Origin: a virus
Direction: 5' to 3' (one strand)
Length of the DNA: 21,715 bases
Virus record (IMG/VR): IMGVR_UViG_3300006124_000353
Location: 1-21,715 of that record
The position numbers and the translations under genes were made by a program. Below, piece by piece: positions 4,091-20,745 of this stretch. The notes beneath the pieces are model-generated. The model saw only the letters and a program-made list of their open reading frames with translations, did no database searches and had not been told where the DNA came from. Within the stretch, counting starts at the first letter, position 1; every line of letters begins with the position of its first letter.

Positions 4091-4418
4091 TTTCTATCTC
4101 CCATTCCAAAATTTCCGCATCCGCCGCCGCTTCAGACAGCATCTGCACCTTCAAATGATTGCAATCGCCGAACAGCCCATCAACAAACCGCCCCACCTCA
4201 TGCTTGCCGCAGCGCCGCGCCATCTCCAAAGCGTCCGGGCTAAACGCCGCCAAACCCGTTTCACACACCAACAACAACCGCGCCAAAAACCGCCGCCCTT
4301 CCGCCGTGCCAGCCACCGCCTTAAAATCCAGCCGGTCACGCGCCGCCAACTTTTGCGCCGCCGCCGCCAAACGCTGTTCGTGACCGTCCATCAGTTGCTG
4401 CTCAACATCAAGTGCCAT
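4074..4418 (-). CDS. Bbp19-like phage protein
   Basis: About 114 residues from the ATG at 4418 (MALDVEQQLMDGHEQRLAAA); an alternative ATG at 4391 overlaps the preceding TGA by one base and would remove nine residues. The core DFKAVAGTAEGRRFLARLLL, followed by CETGLAAFSPDALEMARR and a GKHEVGRFVDGLF segment, matches the pattern of the Bbp19 family (a TPAGRR-x-LWRLLE type core followed by an EGRRNVGL-like helix) encoded near the portal and scaffold in BPP-1-like phages. Its molecular role is not known to me. It sits in the head-gene cluster just before the scaffold gene. Confidence 0.6.
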   Translation of the reverse strand: MALDVEQQLMDGHEQRLAAAAQKLAARDRLDFKAVAGTAEGRRFLARLLLVCETGLAAFSPDALEMARRCGKHEVGRFVDGLFGDCNHLKVQMLSEAAADAEILEWEIENGRND

Positions 4419-5128
4419 AAGCCCGCCACGGTTGTGATGAACTGGCACACCTTCGATGCCTGCCCGCCCGTTGGCGCCCCCAGCGAGTACGCCACACCCG
4501 CGCCCAAGGCTTCAATCGCATCCGTGCCGTACGGGTAAACTTTCAGCGGATTGGTGGCCTGTGCGTTCAGCACCGTGATGGTCAAAGAACTCGCCGCCCT
4601 CAGGTTGGCCGTGTTGGGCAAAATCACCCCGCTGCCCGCCGCCACCGTCGTCACCCGGTTCATCAACCGGATTAGCGGCGTTGCCGTGCCTTGCGTCGTG
4701 CCGGCCGCCGCCATGCCGTTGGCGCTGCTTTGCGTGGGCAGGTTGCCTAAAAACCCCGCACCGACCAGCTCACATTCCCAGTTGCCCGCCGACGAACAGA
4801 CAATCGTCAGGAACGAGCTGGGCATCTGCACGATATAACCGCCCGCACTGCCAAAATTGATGGCGTCAGTGCCGCCCGCAAAAACAGCACACTCCTGTGC
4901 GCCGTCGTTATAGATGTTCAGCGTCATGCCCGGGAGGGCTTGCGGCAACTGCACCGCATCCCCCGCACTGGCACAAGTCACAATCCGGTTCACCTCATTG
5001 TTCAAAATGGGCAGGTTGCCCACATTGATGTAGTTCGCCCCCGGCTGCGCGGTGTACTGCCCCCAGCTTTCAAGCTCAATTTCGCCGTTCAGCAACAAAA
5101 TCTTGGTGGGTACGTTAACGTTGCTCAT
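4391..5128 (-). CDS. Beta-rich structural protein with an internal duplication
   Basis: A 245-residue protein with AGAGGG before the ATG. It is made of two related halves: VTCASAGDAVQLPQALPG with LNIYNDGAQECAVFAGGTDA and FLTIVCSSAGNWECEL (about residues 50-121), and VTTVAAGSGVILPNTA with LTITVLNAQ, YPYGTDAIEALG and VCQFITTVAGLWHLML (about 160-242). Each half is Gly/Ala/Thr-rich with strand-turn spacing typical of phage fibre or decoration domains. It is encoded between the spike-base-like gene and the Bbp19-like gene in the head module. I do not recognise a named family; a virion surface or head-fibre role is an inference. Confidence 0.6.
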   Translation of the reverse strand: MSNVNVPTKILLLNGEIELESWGQYTAQPGANYINVGNLPILNNEVNRIVTCASAGDAVQLPQALPGMTLNIYNDGAQECAVFAGGTDAINFGSAGGYIVQMPSSFLTIVCSSAGNWECELVGAGFLGNLPTQSSANGMAAAGTTQGTATPLIRLMNRVTTVAAGSGVILPNTANLRAASSLTITVLNAQATNPLKVYPYGTDAIEALGAGVAYSLGAPTGGQASKVCQFITTVAGLWHLMLSSN

Positions 5129-9708: not shown

Positions 9709-9880
9709 GGCGTTAGCCCCCAATCTGCATAGGAAACGGATTTAAACTTTTATGTAAAAACGTTGTAACGGTCGTAGAGGTCGTAGAGGTCGTGGAATGT
9801 GCGCACGTTTAAAAAAACCTCTACGACCTTCACGACCTTCACAAAAAAGCGTAGACACCGTAGACAACAAATTAAATTTC

Positions 9881-9923
9881 AAAAAAAACCAAAAGCTTAA
9901 GCTGTCACCGCTAAACTTTTGGT
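9881..9923 (-). terminator. Candidate terminator after the cro-primase operon
   Basis: Read on the minus strand, ACCAAAAG and CTTTTGGT form an 8-bp stem with a 20-base loop (which itself contains most of AGCTTAAGCT), followed by an eight-base T run. It sits between the primase gene and the late operon. The stem is AT-rich and the loop long, so this is only a moderate candidate. Confidence 0.4.
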
Positions 9924-9960
9924 GTTCACGTTTGAAACTCGTCTACGACCTTCTACGACC

Positions 9961-10005
9961 TCTACACTTATTTCCTATATATACTAAAATCAACCTATAC
10001 ATTGC
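9961..10005. other. AT-rich block inside the repeat array
   Basis: A short AT-rich segment containing TTTCCTATATATACTAAAAT lies between two inward/outward-facing pairs of the 9-mer. In iteron-type origins an AT-rich stretch next to the repeats is the duplex-unwinding element; that reading is an inference here. It is followed by an alternating GCGCGCGC run. Confidence 0.45.
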
Positions 10006-10137
10006 GCGCGCGTAGTTAGGTAAAAGGTCGTAGAGGTCGTAGAGATTCCATGCAGCCTTACAGCCACGTGGCCTACAGACTCTACGACCTTAATGCCGAG
10101 GTCGTAGAGAGGTCGTAGAGGTCGTAGAGTTTTTTAA

Positions 10138-12273
10138 TCATTTCCGCCAAACACGCACAGAATGCGTGCCAATTTTTGTAACGCTTAAGCAATAACCCAA
10201 TTTCTTCATCACCTTCGCAATCTGCATCTCATCACCGCGCTTCTTAAAACGGGCTTCGATCTTCAAACACTGGCTGGCGATGTCCGCCGTCTGCAGCAAC
10301 AAACGCTCGCGCGGTGCCTCGCCGGTGAGCAAATCCGGCTCGTCCAGCCAGCGCTCGATCTCCTCCTGCCACTGCTCGGAAACCATATGCGCCTCGTGCA
10401 TCCCCGCCGCCAACCGCTCCGCATCCTGCCAGCACACCCCGTGTTCCAAAAACAGCAGGCGGCCTTCCGCCCACAACTGCAGGCGGTCACGGGCCACCGC
10501 AGCCACATCCACCACCCCCGTCCGGATAGGGCACCAGCGCCGGTTGCCCGTCTCGTCAGCCAAAAACTGCTCCTGGTTGGTGGTGCCCACAAACACATTG
10601 CGCCGCGCATAAGACGTGGCGAACTCGCGGTACTTCGGCACCCACTTCTCATGGGTGCGCGTGATGAAGGCCTTGATGCCCTCCAGCTCCCGTGTCCGCA
10701 AGCCCTGCAGCTCGGCTATCTCAGCCACCAGGCAACCCCTCAGCTTGCGCGACAGGTCATCCTCCTTCTCATGGAACGACACCTCACAAAACATGCCGTC
10801 ATCCGGCAGCATCGCCGCCACGCCAGACGACTTGCGGCTGCCCTGCACACCCACCAGCACCGGCACCATATCGGCCTTGATGCCCGGTGACAGCAGCCTG
10901 CCCGCCATCGCCGACCACAAATAGCGCGACAAGGCCAGCGCGTAGGGCGAATCCCCGCAGCCAAAATAACCCGCAAAGAACCCCGCCACCCTCGGCACAC
11001 CGTCCCATGCCAGACCCTCCAACCACTCAATGGCCGAATCAAACGGGCGGTCTTCCGCCACCATCAGCACCGCGTCACGCATCAGCTCCCTGCCCACCGG
11101 CCGGAAACCCAACCGCTCCAACGCAATGCGCAGCCGCGTGTAGTCGGCATCGGTCAACGGCAACCACGCCTGGGGCGCATCCGGCAAGGCAAACACAATC
11201 TCGTCACGGAACCTGTCCAGCCGGATGTCCATCCCGCACAGGTCTGGGCGCACCAGCACCAAAGCCAAGTTGGGCAAGCCCGCAATAATGCGGCCATTGC
11301 CGTCACGGGCAAACGGCGGCAGCGCCACCCCCACCCGTTCAACCACCTCAAACTCATCTTCGGATGCCACCGCCCCCGCCGCTTTGCCCTTGGCCTTCAG
11401 GCAATGCTCACGCCACAGATAGAGCAAGGCGCGGGTCGGGTCTTGCCCGCGGTGGCCCAGCGCCACCTCCATGGCATGGCCGTTGTTGGCAAGTATCGAG
11501 AACACCTCGGCATCATCAAGCCCCGCCGCATACAAGGCCACCCCCGCCGCGAACAACGCCGCCGAGCGGTCGCCGCCGCTTTCCCCGGCCAACAAAAACT
11601 GCCGGCAAAGCCCAGGGAGCGGCAACGAGGCCACGTCCGGCAACACCAGATCGGTCAGGATGTCAGGGTAAGACAAATCCAGCACCGTCGCGCTCGGCTT
11701 CGCCTTGGCATACTGCGCCGCCAAGGCCGCCAGCACGGCGGGTTCGACGGCCTGCAAATCGTCAGGGCTATCCGCCAGCCGGTTGCCGGTCACCGTCAAA
11801 AAGCGCGCCGCGCCGCCGCCATACACCTCAATGCCGATGGCGGGGTTGGTCCAGTCACCGACACTGCCCGAAAAGAAAATCCGGTAGCCCTTGCCGCTGG
11901 GGCTCAGCTCCGTGTAACTGCCCAACTGGCCGATCACCGCCAACGCCCAGGGCGCATCCAGGCAATTGTCAAGGTCAACCGCGCCCACGCCTTCAAGGCC
12001 GGTCATCACAAACCCCAGGCCGCACGACCGCCCGGGGTCGAAGGCCGCCAGCGCCGCCGCAAACGGCTTCCAGCGTTCCGGCTTGGCGGTGGACAGCCCC
12101 CGCGCCGGGTTGCCGGGCTGCTGCGGCACCTTGACGAACTTGTTGCGCCGCGCGTCCCACACCCGCTTCCACGGCGCCCAGCGGTCATGCCCGCGCAGCG
12201 CGGCGGGGATGTTGCCGGGCAGGAAAACGGGGAGCGGCGCGTCTGGGCCAGAAACCTCCCCAGGCACCCTCAT
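10138..12273 (-). CDS. PrimPol-type primase fused to VapE-family helicase domain
   Basis: A 711-residue replication protein from an ATG at 12273 that overlaps the cro stop (ATGA). Residues 20-140 form an archaeo-eukaryotic-type primase-polymerase domain: RWAPWKRVWD, GLGFVMTG, the acidic pair VDLDNC (Asp100, Asp102) and SPSGKGYRIFF (124-134), as in the NrS-1-like polymerases. A helical linker with a primase C-terminal-type segment follows. From about residue 400 to 650 is the VirE/VapE P-loop domain: VPVLVGVQGSRKSS (about 467-480), HEKEDDLSRKLRG, LVAEIAELQGL, IKAFITRTHEKWVPKYREFA and FVGTTNQEQFLADETGNRRW. The P-loop has Arg where Gly usually precedes Lys. It probably primes and unwinds phage DNA, and lies beside the iteron-like array. 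Confidence 0.85.
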   Translation of the reverse strand: MRVPGEVSGPDAPLPVFLPGNIPAALRGHDRWAPWKRVWDARRNKFVKVPQQPGNPARGLSTAKPERWKPFAAALAAFDPGRSCGLGFVMTGLEGVGAVDLDNCLDAPWALAVIGQLGSYTELSPSGKGYRIFFSGSVGDWTNPAIGIEVYGGGAARFLTVTGNRLADSPDDLQAVEPAVLAALAAQYAKAKPSATVLDLSYPDILTDLVLPDVASLPLPGLCRQFLLAGESGGDRSAALFAAGVALYAAGLDDAEVFSILANNGHAMEVALGHRGQDPTRALLYLWREHCLKAKGKAAGAVASEDEFEVVERVGVALPPFARDGNGRIIAGLPNLALVLVRPDLCGMDIRLDRFRDEIVFALPDAPQAWLPLTDADYTRLRIALERLGFRPVGRELMRDAVLMVAEDRPFDSAIEWLEGLAWDGVPRVAGFFAGYFGCGDSPYALALSRYLWSAMAGRLLSPGIKADMVPVLVGVQGSRKSSGVAAMLPDDGMFCEVSFHEKEDDLSRKLRGCLVAEIAELQGLRTRELEGIKAFITRTHEKWVPKYREFATSYARRNVFVGTTNQEQFLADETGNRRWCPIRTGVVDVAAVARDRLQLWAEGRLLFLEHGVCWQDAERLAAGMHEAHMVSEQWQEEIERWLDEPDLLTGEAPRERLLLQTADIASQCLKIEARFKKRGDEMQIAKVMKKLGYCLSVTKIGTHSVRVWRK

Positions 12274-12509
12274 TTGCCGCTGGCGGCAGCCGTGCCGCGG
12301 ATGAACGCCCAATCAATGTCAGGGCGCAGGTCTTCGCAAGTGAGCGCCCCGCCGGACTCCCTTGCGATACGAATGCACAAAGGTGTGCCGATTTTTGCAT
12401 CAACGCAGACTGCCTTGCGCAGATAACCTAAGGATGTACCGCAGCGCGTGGCGAACTCATGTTGTTGGGGGACAGATAACGTGTTCAGGTATGCTCTAAG
12501 TTTTTTCAT
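12270..12509 (-). CDS. Cro-like repressor (YdaS/Cro family)
   Basis: A 79-residue protein, MKKLRAYLNTLSVPQQHEFA, then RCGTSLGYLRKAVCV, then GTPLCIRIARESGGALTCEDLRPDIDWAFIRG. The EFA-x-RCGTS-x-GYLRKA helix-turn-helix and SGG-x-(V/L)-T-x-EDLRPD end are hallmarks of the Cro/YdaS family, whose members turn on lytic growth by opposing CI. It is divergent from the CI-type gene and is the first gene of the leftward operon, coupled to the primase by an ATGA overlap. No clear ribosome site precedes the ATG (pyrimidine-rich CCTTTCCTG), so its translation may be weak or depend on a very short leader. Confidence 0.88.
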   Translation of the reverse strand: MKKLRAYLNTLSVPQQHEFATRCGTSLGYLRKAVCVDAKIGTPLCIRIARESGGALTCEDLRPDIDWAFIRGTAAASGK

Positions 12510-12692
12510 CAGGAAAGGTTGGTAGGTTTAAAAACCCTGAGTTTACCCCTAGCAACCCCCATAAACAATACCCACAGGTATTAAACTTAGTTATAACCAT
12601 AAATATCAAAAGTTTAATTAACTTATTCACCTCGGAGTAATTTAAGTGTATAAAGTGCTATTAATGGTTACTTAAAGGTACACGGGGGCAAC
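12510..12692. promoter_or_regulatory. Divergent CI/Cro switch region
   Basis: An AT-rich 183-base gap between divergent cro and cI. A candidate repressor promoter is listed separately. For cro, TTGTTT-17-TAAACT on the minus strand is a weak candidate. Possible operators are an imperfect palindrome GGTATTAAACTTAGTTATAACC-like element at 12577-12598 and TTACTTAAAGGTAC at 12668-12681; the latter lies just before the repressor ribosome site and would allow self-control. Similar words recur upstream of the two downstream transcription units. Confidence 0.6.
12626..12654 (+). promoter_or_regulatory. Candidate repressor promoter
   Basis: TTCACC at 12626-12631 and TATAAA at 12649-12654 with a 17-base spacer match sigma-70 elements at 4 of 6 and 5 of 6 positions. 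Transcription would start about 30 bases before the repressor GTG. Confidence 0.5.
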
Positions 12693-13460
12693 GTGGCGAT
12701 AGACCGTAAAAATGAATATGAACACCGTCGGCAAAGGCTTAACGAACTGCTTGTCTCCGGTTTGTTCGCCGGAAAAGCGCCGCAAGCCTCTTTGGCAAAG
12801 GTGTGCGGGTTAGATGCGTCCTACATATCCAGGCTGCTCTACCCGGATGGAAAAACGGGTAAAAAGGTGATGGGTGAAATGACCATGCGCAATCTGGAAA
12901 TTGCGCTAAACCTGCCCCGTGGCTGGTTTGACCTGCCCTTGGGCTCACCCGTGCCGGGCGAAGCGAAAGGGCGCGTGGCGGCCAGCCTCCCCGCCGTGGC
13001 GGCGCACGCCCCCGGCGACGCCCTGCCCGACGGCAGCATCGCCATCCCCGAGTACCGGGTCAAGTTTGGCGCGGGCAACGGCCACACCCTCGAATACGAC
13101 CCGGTCGAAGAAGCAGAGCCCGCCTGGTACCGGCTGTCGTGGTTCCGCAAACACAACATCAACCCCGCCCACGTCAAACGCTTCAGGGTGCACGGCAACA
13201 GCATGGAGCCGCTGCTGTTCCACGGCGACGCCATCCTCGTCAACCTCGCCGAGACCCACATCGCCGACGGCAAGGTCTACGCCATCCGCTACGGTGACGA
13301 ACTGAAGGTCAAACGCATCACCAAACGGTTGGACGGCAGCCTGGTGCTGATCAGCGACAATGCCGACTACCTGCCCGAAGCCGTGCCGCCCGAACTGGCC
13401 ACCGAACACATCACCATCATAGGCCGCGTCCGCGACAAAAGCGGCGCGGGCGGATTGTGA
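12693..13460 (+). CDS. CI-type phage repressor, HTH plus S24 peptidase
   Basis: A 255-residue lysogeny repressor starting at a GTG with GGGGG five bases upstream. Residues 30-80 hold an HTH (QASLAKVCGLDASYISRLLY) with the NLEIALNLPRGWFD ending usual for phage CI proteins. Residues 118-250 form an S24/LexA-type C-terminal domain: VHGNSMEPLLFHGDAILV with nucleophile Ser170 and ELKVKRITKR with Lys207, 37 residues apart as in LexA. A possible self-cleavage bond is Ala127-Gly128 in FGAGNG. It probably binds the operators around 12577-12681 and upstream of the early operon, holding the phage dormant until RecA-stimulated cleavage. Family is secure; inducibility is inferred. Confidence 0.92.
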   Translation: MAIDRKNEYEHRRQRLNELLVSGLFAGKAPQASLAKVCGLDASYISRLLYPDGKTGKKVMGEMTMRNLEIALNLPRGWFDLPLGSPVPGEAKGRVAASLPAVAAHAPGDALPDGSIAIPEYRVKFGAGNGHTLEYDPVEEAEPAWYRLSWFRKHNINPAHVKRFRVHGNSMEPLLFHGDAILVNLAETHIADGKVYAIRYGDELKVKRITKRLDGSLVLISDNADYLPEAVPPELATEHITIIGRVRDKSGAGGL

Positions 13461-19086: not shown

Positions 19087-19364
19087 TGAAAGAGTCCGCC
19101 ATCGAAAAGGCACTGTGCGCCCGGATCGCCGAACTGGGCGGCACCATCCATAAAATCCGCTGGGTCAACCGCAAAGGCGCGCCCGACCGCGTCATCATGT
19201 ACCGGGGCAAGACCGTCTGGGTCGAACTCAAACGCCCCGGCGGCAAACCCGAAGCGCACCAACAGCGCGCCCATCAACGGCTGCGCGCCATGGGCCAGCA
19301 CGTCGTGGTGGTGGACACCCTGGCAGGCGTGCATGCCTTGGCGGCGGAGCTGCACCATGCCTAA
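19086..19364 (+). CDS. VRR-NUC domain nuclease
   Basis: A 92-residue stand-alone VRR-NUC protein. MKESAIEKALCARIAELGG is followed by KIRWVNRKGAPDRVIMYRG, VWVELKRPGGKPEAHQQRAH and HVVVVDTLAG. Catalytic residues of the PD-(D/E)XK fold are visible as Glu6, Asp in GAPD, and Glu-Lys in VELK, with a following Gln. Stand-alone phage VRR-NUC proteins are structure-selective nucleases that can act on Holliday-type junctions. The start overlaps the polymerase stop by one base (TAATG), and the 3' end overlaps the helicase gene by 8 bases, so the three are probably made together. Confidence 0.9.
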   Translation: MKESAIEKALCARIAELGGTIHKIRWVNRKGAPDRVIMYRGKTVWVELKRPGGKPEAHQQRAHQRLRAMGQHVVVVDTLAGVHALAAELHHA

Positions 19365-20745
19365 AGCCTTCGCCCCGCGCCCCTACCAGCACGACATCAT
19401 CCGCTACCTGCTGGCCAACCCGCGCTGTGCCGTCTGGGCCGGCATGGGCACCGGCAAGACCGTATCCACCCTGACCGCCCTGTCCATCCTGACCCTCACC
19501 GAGAGCGGCCCCGCGCTGGTGATAGCCCCCCTGCGCGTCGCCCAATCCACCTGGCCGGACGAAGCCGCCAAATGGCAACACCTGGCACACCTAAAAATAG
19601 CCGCCATCACCGGCGACGCCAAACGCCGCGCCGCCGCCTTGGCAAGCCCCGCCGACATCTACACCATCAACTACGAAAACCTGCCCTGGCTGGTGGCGGC
19701 CCTTAACGGCGCGTGGCCGTTCGCCACCGTGGTCGCCGACGAGTCCACCCGCCTCAAAAGCTTCCGCCTGCGCCAAGGCGGCCAACGCGCGCGCAGCCTA
19801 GGCCGCGTCGCCCACCGAGCCGCACACTTCATCGAACTGACCGGCACACCCAGCCCCAACGGCCTGCAAGACCTCTGGGGCCAAGCCTGGTTCATCGACA
19901 AAGGCGAACGCCTAGGCCGCACCTACGGCGCCTTCCAAGCGCGCTGGTTCCACCCGGTGCGCGTCGGCGCCGACGCCCACGCCGTCCAACACATCCCGCA
20001 ACCGTACGCCCAAAGCGAAATAGAAGGCAAACTGCGCGACCGCTGCCTCACCATCGACGCCAAAGACCATTTCAGCCTGAGCGACCCGATCACCAACCTC
20101 ATCCACGTCACGCTGCCGCCCAAAGCCATGCGCCTGTACCTCGACATGGAGCGGGACATGTACCTGCAACTCGCCTCCGGCCACACCGTAGAAGCCTTCA
20201 ACGCCGCCAGCCAGACCATCAAATGCCTGCAACTGGCCAACGGCGCCCTGTACACCGACGACAAAGGCAACTGGCAAGCCGTCCACGACGCCAAACTGCA
20301 AGCCCTGGAATCAGTCATCGAAGAAGCGGCAGGCATGCCCGTACTGGTCGCCTACCACTTCAAAAGCGACCTGGCACGGCTGCAAAAGCGCCTCCCCCAA
20401 GGCCGCGCCCTCGACAAAAGCCCCGCCACCCTGCGCGACTGGAACGCAGGCAAAATCCCCGTCCTGTTCGCCCACCCCGAAAGCGCCGGGCACGGCCTCA
20501 ACCTCCAGGACGGCGGCAACATCCTGGTGTTCTTTGCCCACTGGTGGGCGCTTGAGCCCTACCAACAGATCATCGAACGCATAGGCCCCGTACGCCAGGC
20601 ACAATCCGGCCACCGGCGGCCGGTCTACATCCACCACATCATCGCCGCCGGCACACTGGACGAACAGGTCATGGCGCGGCGCGACAGCAAGCGCAGCGTC
20701 CAAGAGCAACTTTTAGAAGCCATGAAAACCCGGAGCAACCCATGA
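19357..20745 (+). CDS. SNF2-family DEAD-like helicase/translocase
   Basis: A 462-residue protein from the ATG at 19357 (MPKAFAPRPYQHDIIRYLL). RecA-like domain 1: Q-type PRPYQ, Walker A AGMGTGKT (28-35), LVIAPLRVAQSTWPDEAAKW (Ia), YTINYENLPWL, motif II VADEST (about 126-131; DEST in place of DEAH) and LTGTPSPNGLQDLW (III). Domain 2: LVAYHFKSDLARLQ, AHPESAGHGLNLQDG (V) and QQIIERIGPVRQAQ (VI with arginine fingers). It is the phage SNF2 type found with VRR-NUC genes, probably a dsDNA translocase for fork or junction remodelling. It lacks additional chromatin-type domains. The last gene of the tight replication cluster apart from a short peptide. Confidence 0.92.
   Translation: MPKAFAPRPYQHDIIRYLLANPRCAVWAGMGTGKTVSTLTALSILTLTESGPALVIAPLRVAQSTWPDEAAKWQHLAHLKIAAITGDAKRRAAALASPADIYTINYENLPWLVAALNGAWPFATVVADESTRLKSFRLRQGGQRARSLGRVAHRAAHFIELTGTPSPNGLQDLWGQAWFIDKGERLGRTYGAFQARWFHPVRVGADAHAVQHIPQPYAQSEIEGKLRDRCLTIDAKDHFSLSDPITNLIHVTLPPKAMRLYLDMERDMYLQLASGHTVEAFNAASQTIKCLQLANGALYTDDKGNWQAVHDAKLQALESVIEEAAGMPVLVAYHFKSDLARLQKRLPQGRALDKSPATLRDWNAGKIPVLFAHPESAGHGLNLQDGGNILVFFAHWWALEPYQQIIERIGPVRQAQSGHRRPVYIHHIIAAGTLDEQVMARRDSKRSVQEQLLEAMKTRSNP

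Follow-up and report, generated by a model that had tools for sequence, protein, structure and literature searches.

A two-arm iteron array 3' of a phage primase-helicase gene is very probably a replication origin recognised by the protein's C-terminal wing

Genomic context and the primase-helicase

The window analysed here is the whole of a 21.7-kb virus record (IMGVR_UViG_3300006124_000353, 21,715 nucleotides). It encodes terS, terL, a head-tail connector, a DUF2800 exonuclease, a single-stranded DNA-binding protein, PolA, an S24 repressor and a YdaS-like gene, a content which indicates that the source is a phage, probably a temperate one. An AT-rich gap at 12401-12800, between the YdaS-like gene (minus strand) and the S24 repressor (plus strand), is likely the immunity or early control region, and a SNF2/DEAD-type helicase gene (19333-20745; PF00176, 8e-12) ends the replication module. 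No plasmid Rep family was found among the scanned window proteins. We also considered that the window could be a PICI satellite using the virion genes of a helper. This was rejected, since it has its own TerS, TerL and head-tail connector, and since full phages carry the same module.

The gene of main interest lies at 10138-12312 on the minus strand and encodes a 724-residue protein, a PrimPol fused to a VapE-like SF3 helicase, which family and structure matches lead us to propose as the initiator. The helicase part matches PF05272 over residues 431-641 (1.3e-53), and the protein matches the DNA helicase family phrog_256 (2.6e-92). Residues 34-208 match phage primase families and include the invariant D113 and D115, in the manner of PrimPol; the domain-family scan of the window proteins gave no TOPRIM match to this protein. 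Its AlphaFold2 (AF2) model has a moderate overall pLDDT of 71, rising to 84-92 in the C-terminal domain. There, at about residues 675-724 (10141-10290, minus strand), the model places helices at 675-682 and 692-704, followed by a two-strand hairpin (708-714 and 717-723). Hence, the C-terminus is predicted to be a winged helix, whose wing (708-723) would hold the residues that co-vary with the repeat unit described below. The best structural match in the PDB is SaPI PriRep1 with double-stranded DNA (7pds; Z 27.6, 376 aligned residues, spanning 328-724), with NrS-1, the SaPI5 primase-helicase, AsfvPrimPol and poxvirus D5 ranking lower. A sequence search of the PDB with the same protein returned only 7pds (E 6.1e-43).

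The repeat array in the window

Between positions 9770 and 10128 we identified 11 exact copies of GGTCGTAGA, seven on the plus strand (starting at 9770, 9779, 10026, 10035, 10100, 10111 and 10120) and four on the minus strand (9820, 9942, 9952 and 10081). There is one further copy with a single mismatch at 9788, and nearby copies with more mismatches lie at about 9829-9840. When one mismatch is allowed, the window has 17 hits, whereas shuffled sequences average 2.0 and never exceed 6. Tandem copies are spaced by 9-11 bases, both orientations are used, and AT-rich blocks lie between the groups. The edge of the array is about 9-10 bases 3' of the stop codon of the primase-helicase gene (10138). 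The earlier note, made from the sequence alone, had thus described the array accurately in its interval, its eleven exact and additional near copies, its spacing, its two orientations with AT-rich blocks, and its contact with the 3' end of the PrimPol/VapE gene. The same 501 bases occur identically in a second contig, IMGVR_UViG_3300025365_000028 (L020), so a misassembly in a single contig is not its source.

Starting from the gene, the proximal arm comprises an outer triplet of exact plus-strand iterons (10100-10108, 10111-10119 and 10120-10128), a single inverted iteron on the minus strand (10081-10089), which corresponds to the conserved "+" slot of the relatives, and an inner plus-strand pair (10026-10034 and 10035-10043), making six sites in all. 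It is followed by an AT-rich core of 65 bp (9961-10025; AT 0.66 vs 0.37 in the gene), the proposed melting site. On the other side of the core is the inner pair of the distal arm, two exact and opposed minus-strand copies (9942-9950 and 9952-9960). A second AT-rich block with A/T tracts (9841-9935), where the GC content drops to about 0.43-0.47, separates them from an outer distal iteron on the minus strand (9820-9828) and its degenerate tandem copy (about 9829-9840; 9820-9840 together). The outermost element is the plus-strand triplet at 9770, 9779 and 9788 (9770-9796), the last with one mismatch, which has no fixed counterpart in most relatives. In other words, six proximal sites, a core of 65 bp and an opposed pair are joined in the window by additional outer sites, which most relatives do not have.

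Arrays of other words lie at the same place in relatives

To study conservation, we collected 80 viral and 32 genome loci by profile searches and reduced them to a non-redundant set of 43 loci with dissimilar downstream DNA. In 39 of these 43, a different 8-9-mer array on both strands lies just 3' of the homologous gene and scores above all 20 dinucleotide shuffles. The region 3' of the gene also beats every other 380-bp window of its own locus in 34 of the 43 loci, and the array score upstream of the gene is at chance level. A clear array 3' of the gene is absent in four loci (L125, L139, L141 and L031). Two of these, L125 and L139, come from insect-symbiont genomes and are perhaps decayed prophages. 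L031 (ctHz2215) is a distantly related VapE phage in which repeats of the GTGGCTATA type and an AT-rich stretch occur at about 4110-4450, upstream of the helicase gene and not downstream.

The 9-mer itself is another matter. The exact window unit forms an array only in this phage (the window and L020), and the array DNA had no match among phage records. The exact double unit GGTCGTAGAGGTCGTAGA is found in 18 contigs among all viral contigs, and these, besides L020, have few copies and no array and are mostly coding-repeat-like. Hence, the conservation that the earlier note proposed to look for fails for the word and holds for its position, layout and skeleton.

The closest annotated phages by helicase are Yersinia YeP4-6, APSE, Acidovorax ACF1 and the Caulobacter Rauchviruses, and arrays of other words can be seen by eye 3' of the genes of relatives, such as AGGTTGTCT in YeP5 and GGTTGTTAC in APSE-1. 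APSE-3 (LR794150.1) has a full two-arm array 3' of its VapE gene. The "putative origin" labelled upstream of cro in its GenBank entry (L028:6664-6764, LR794150.1) is AT-rich and has no iterons, and we rejected it as a candidate. In BPP-1 (L143), opposed CGAGGCAAA iterons surround an AT core at about 1050-1250, between bbp28 and the HTH gene bbp27; a small gene separates primase and array there, so that the array is not directly at the primase stop. In L067, L069 and other Enterobacterales prophages, the first iterons lie within the last primase codons (-5 to -35 from the stop), and the C-terminal tail is thus partly encoded by the putative origin repeats.

A common slot map

The arrays share a geometry. 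In gene orientation, sites occupy slots around one inverted site at about -40, -30, -20, +35, +44 and +53, followed by the AT-rich core and then by opposed sites. The inverted site with at least four of the six slots was found in 52 of 66 loci, against a mean of 1.3 and a maximum of 3 with letter-shuffled units. The core has a median length of about 58 bp and an AT content of 0.67 in the relatives (0.45 in the gene), and in every one of the 59 loci where a core was recognised its AT content exceeds that of the gene. The distal arm mirrors the proximal one in some relatives, e.g., +++-++ in APSE. The commonest proximal arms are --+--- and ---+--, which means that most arms have six sites (37 of 59). 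Slots -40 and +35 tend toward mutual exclusion (Fisher p 7e-5), a six-site trend that is suggestive only, because the tree-aware test had too few tree-independent pairs. To compare the units, we aligned their registers by a profile seeded with GGTNGNNNCA. In this common register they follow GGTnGnnnCA, with G at position 5 in 95% of them, and the skeleton they share stems in part from the method, since this pattern served as seed for the register step.

The repeat unit co-varies with the wing of the primase

We compared unit and protein distances across 66 loci with about 40 distinct units, after removal of the helicase-core distance. The association peaks at residues 709-722 (partial r 0.53), the next stretch being 667-680 (0.38). 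For the wing, the partial Mantel correlation is 0.497, and none of 999 permutations was as high. Within the wing, residues 711, 713, 718 and 720 pair with unit positions 4 and 7-9. Gln718 accompanies 11 of 11 units with TC at positions 6-7 and one of the 55 other units, a match on which about 7 of 7 tree-independent pairs agree (p 0.016). The wing of the window protein (VTKIG..S-VRVW) most resembles those of L063, L066 and L119 (a Gilliamella contig). These three have the window's GTAGA half-unit, and their helicase cores rank only about 37th-40th. In the window and the L063/L085 group, GTAGA is accompanied by Ser718. On the 66-leaf tree we counted about 50 unit changes, hardly fewer than the 57 obtained after shuffling, which suggests that specificity turns over fast. 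The earlier note had asked whether the unit co-varies with the primase, TerS or the HTH protein: it tracks the C-terminal wing of the primase, and neither the TerS nor the HTH gene goes with the array.

A correlation between adjacent sequences could arise by linkage, if wing codons and array recombined together without functional match. The wing codons do adjoin the array, and cassette exchange is clear, as in L097 and L108, which have identical cores with different units and wings; the L069 and L082 types likewise join near-identical helicase cores to wings and arrays that differ. However, equally near flanking DNA nearly lacks the signal: the partial correlation is 0.04 for the DNA 330-900 bp downstream and 0.12 for the codons just upstream of the wing, against 0.50 for the wing, which argues against mere linkage. 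The same residue-base matches also recur in distant backbones (Gln718 with TC in the 7 of 7 independent pairs, Ser718 with GTAGA). We thus regard linkage as a very improbable source of the covariation.

Packaging, regulation or hairpin formation

The earlier note had left open a role in packaging, in regulation or as a large hairpin. A pac site read by TerS, whose gene lies just downstream, would agree with the order seen in the window, in Jess A/BL94/SR18 and in BPP-1, where the array is 5' of an HTH or small gene and terS. However, we examined 50 loci whose downstream sequence extends over 3.5 kb or more, and only in the window does a homologue of its TerS adjoin the array. In the 49 others, this homologue lies more than 2.2 kb from the array in nine, and none was found within about 4 kb in 40; yet the array persists. 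Moreover, the next gene in APSE is an antitermination Q gene, and unit changes follow the primase wing rather than the downstream DNA. We therefore hold a pac site to be extremely unlikely. Operators for a repressor or HTH regulator (the 77-residue HTH protein or the YdaS-like protein) would account for the small HTH-like genes which the window and some relatives carry close to the array, and such operator arrays can occupy both strands. Yet a homologue of the 77-residue protein occurs in only 11 of the same 50 loci, a fixed two-arm geometry around an AT core and covariation with the wing would be unexpected, and a single promoter-like site was found, as expected by chance; promoter and terminator scans alike were at chance level. 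This makes an operator function highly improbable. Since the array persists where TerS and HTH homologues are usually not adjacent, it follows the primase and not the packaging or HTH gene.

The repeats might also matter only by pairing, as a stem-loop origin or a terminator. Inverted copies can indeed pair into stems (28 nt, 86%), and the pRN1 paper proposes a stem-loop origin for pRN1 and for these phages, namely a large one in Bordetella phage BIP-1, for which no iteron origin was found (PMC4234260). Pairing leaves unexplained the 9-bp tandem direct copies, the identity of the units within each array, the slot map and the covariation with protein residues. In contrast with the BIP-1 proposal, BPP-1, called nearly identical to BIP-1 in the same paper (PMC4234260), and relatives have opposed iteron arrays (TTTGCCTCG twice, the AT core and CGAGGCAAA twice between bbp28 and bbp27 in BPP-1). 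We rejected a single large stem-loop of pRN1 type in the window, where tandem iterons follow the slot geometry as they do in relatives and in BPP-1. A hairpin whose repeats act by pairing alone is therefore very unlikely. Hence, the three roles that had been left open are disfavoured by the gene neighbourhoods, the covariation and the slot map.

Discussion

The array, its position and geometry, its conservation in relatives, the covariation of wing and unit and the fold match to SaPI PriRep1, all read from sequence, point to the array being the DNA replication origin of the phage, recognised by the wing at the C-terminus of the neighbouring primase-helicase. We consider this very probable. The initiator-driven iteron origin tied to PrimPol/VapE, which the earlier note had favoured, thus becomes the best-supported reading, given the covariation and the persistence of the array beside the primase. 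The GC-skew check suggested with it gave no origin signal: skew in the window, which is a fragment, has no inflection at the array.

We infer that the winged helix at the C-terminus of the primase-helicase would physically bind the 9-bp repeats, its wing hairpin reading the variable bases. Each of the two opposed arms would load one helicase ring facing the AT-rich core, which would melt. The fused PrimPol domain, together with the PolA and single-stranded DNA-binding protein of the phage, would then start replication, probably in both directions.

The type of origin would be a known one. In the alpha protein of P4, primase, helicase and ori-binding domains are joined in one protein that acts on repeats; both PMC4234260 and PMC6092414 mention it. 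The window protein would have the same union, probably with a PrimPol-type primase, and P4 alpha has a TOPRIM-type one (PMC4234260). The repeats of P4 are split between ori and crr. Closer still in layout are the pri-rep-ori modules of PICI and SaPI. A pri-rep-ori segment of EcCICFT073 replicates a plasmid and has its ori 3' of rep, with two iteron sets around an AT-rich region (PMC6092414), and both SaPI Rep and Cch2 use their C-terminal domain to bind iterons (PMC7581432). As proposed for the window, these systems (SaPI PriRep1, EcCICFT073) combine an SF3/VapE-type helicase and a C-terminal DNA-binding domain with an ori directly 3' of the gene, in which an AT-rich region has a set of iterons on either side (PMC6092414). 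The window array lies directly 3' of the proposed initiator gene, and the protein has the VapE/SF3 helicase and a predicted C-terminal dsDNA-binding domain of PriRep1 fold (PF05272; 7pds). By architecture and modelled fold it thus belongs to the pri-rep-ori type, with binding of the iterons by the Rep protein and plasmid replication as putative properties, which the covariation of wing and unit supports only indirectly. The module differs in that the tailed phages carrying it are not satellites but encode a terminase, a portal and PolA themselves, and in that its primase and helicase are fused.

Other systems share some of these features. SCCmec Cch2 is a helicase whose gene has repeats directly downstream, bound by the C-terminal domain (PMC7581432), but these are only three 5-nt iterons without a two-arm array, and the primase is a separate CCPol-MP. 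ORF904 of pRN1 and the BIP-1 protein each unite a PrimPol, an SF3 helicase and a winged helix, with the origin 3' of the gene (PMC4234260). In the PLE satellites of Vibrio, RepA and ori swap as matched modules with switching specificity (PMC8263062), as initiator and origin would in these phages; PLE RepA is, however, a RepA_N family initiator without helicase or primase, and its iterons are semi-palindromic and of about 30 bp. We found no paper on such arrays in this phage group, in a search that lay outside most subscription journals. On the sequence data, three things appear to be new: the occurrence of this putative origin type in complete phages of the group, a slot map that is fixed, and a code that links wing to repeat.

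Our preferred reading is that of a P4/PICI-type origin which belongs to complete tailed phages and onto which the primase-helicase loads itself. It would place such a self-loading origin in a broad group of phages, among them APSE, the Yersinia YeP phages, Rauchvirus/BPP-1, Acidovorax ACF1 and many Enterobacterales prophages, and in APSE it would lie elsewhere than the GenBank label. The array evidence argues against the published stem-loop proposal and against the claim that no other known bacterial replicon has the PICI organisation (PMC6092414). More speculatively, and as a possibility that we rate rather below even, these origins may count subunits, with one six-subunit ring per arm, one C-terminal domain per repeat and six sites kept by slot trading. 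A few wing residues would switch the repeat that is read, so that lineages could rapidly pass from one origin type to another that is incompatible with it; co-infecting phages, satellites or nucleases directed at origins may supply the pressure for such switches. As the repeat words of the relatives change in step with a few primase residues, matched protein-DNA pairs should be readable from sequence. The roughly 40 distinct repeat units, each with its own wing, would thus be a natural data set for initiator-origin recognition and the loading of helicase rings.
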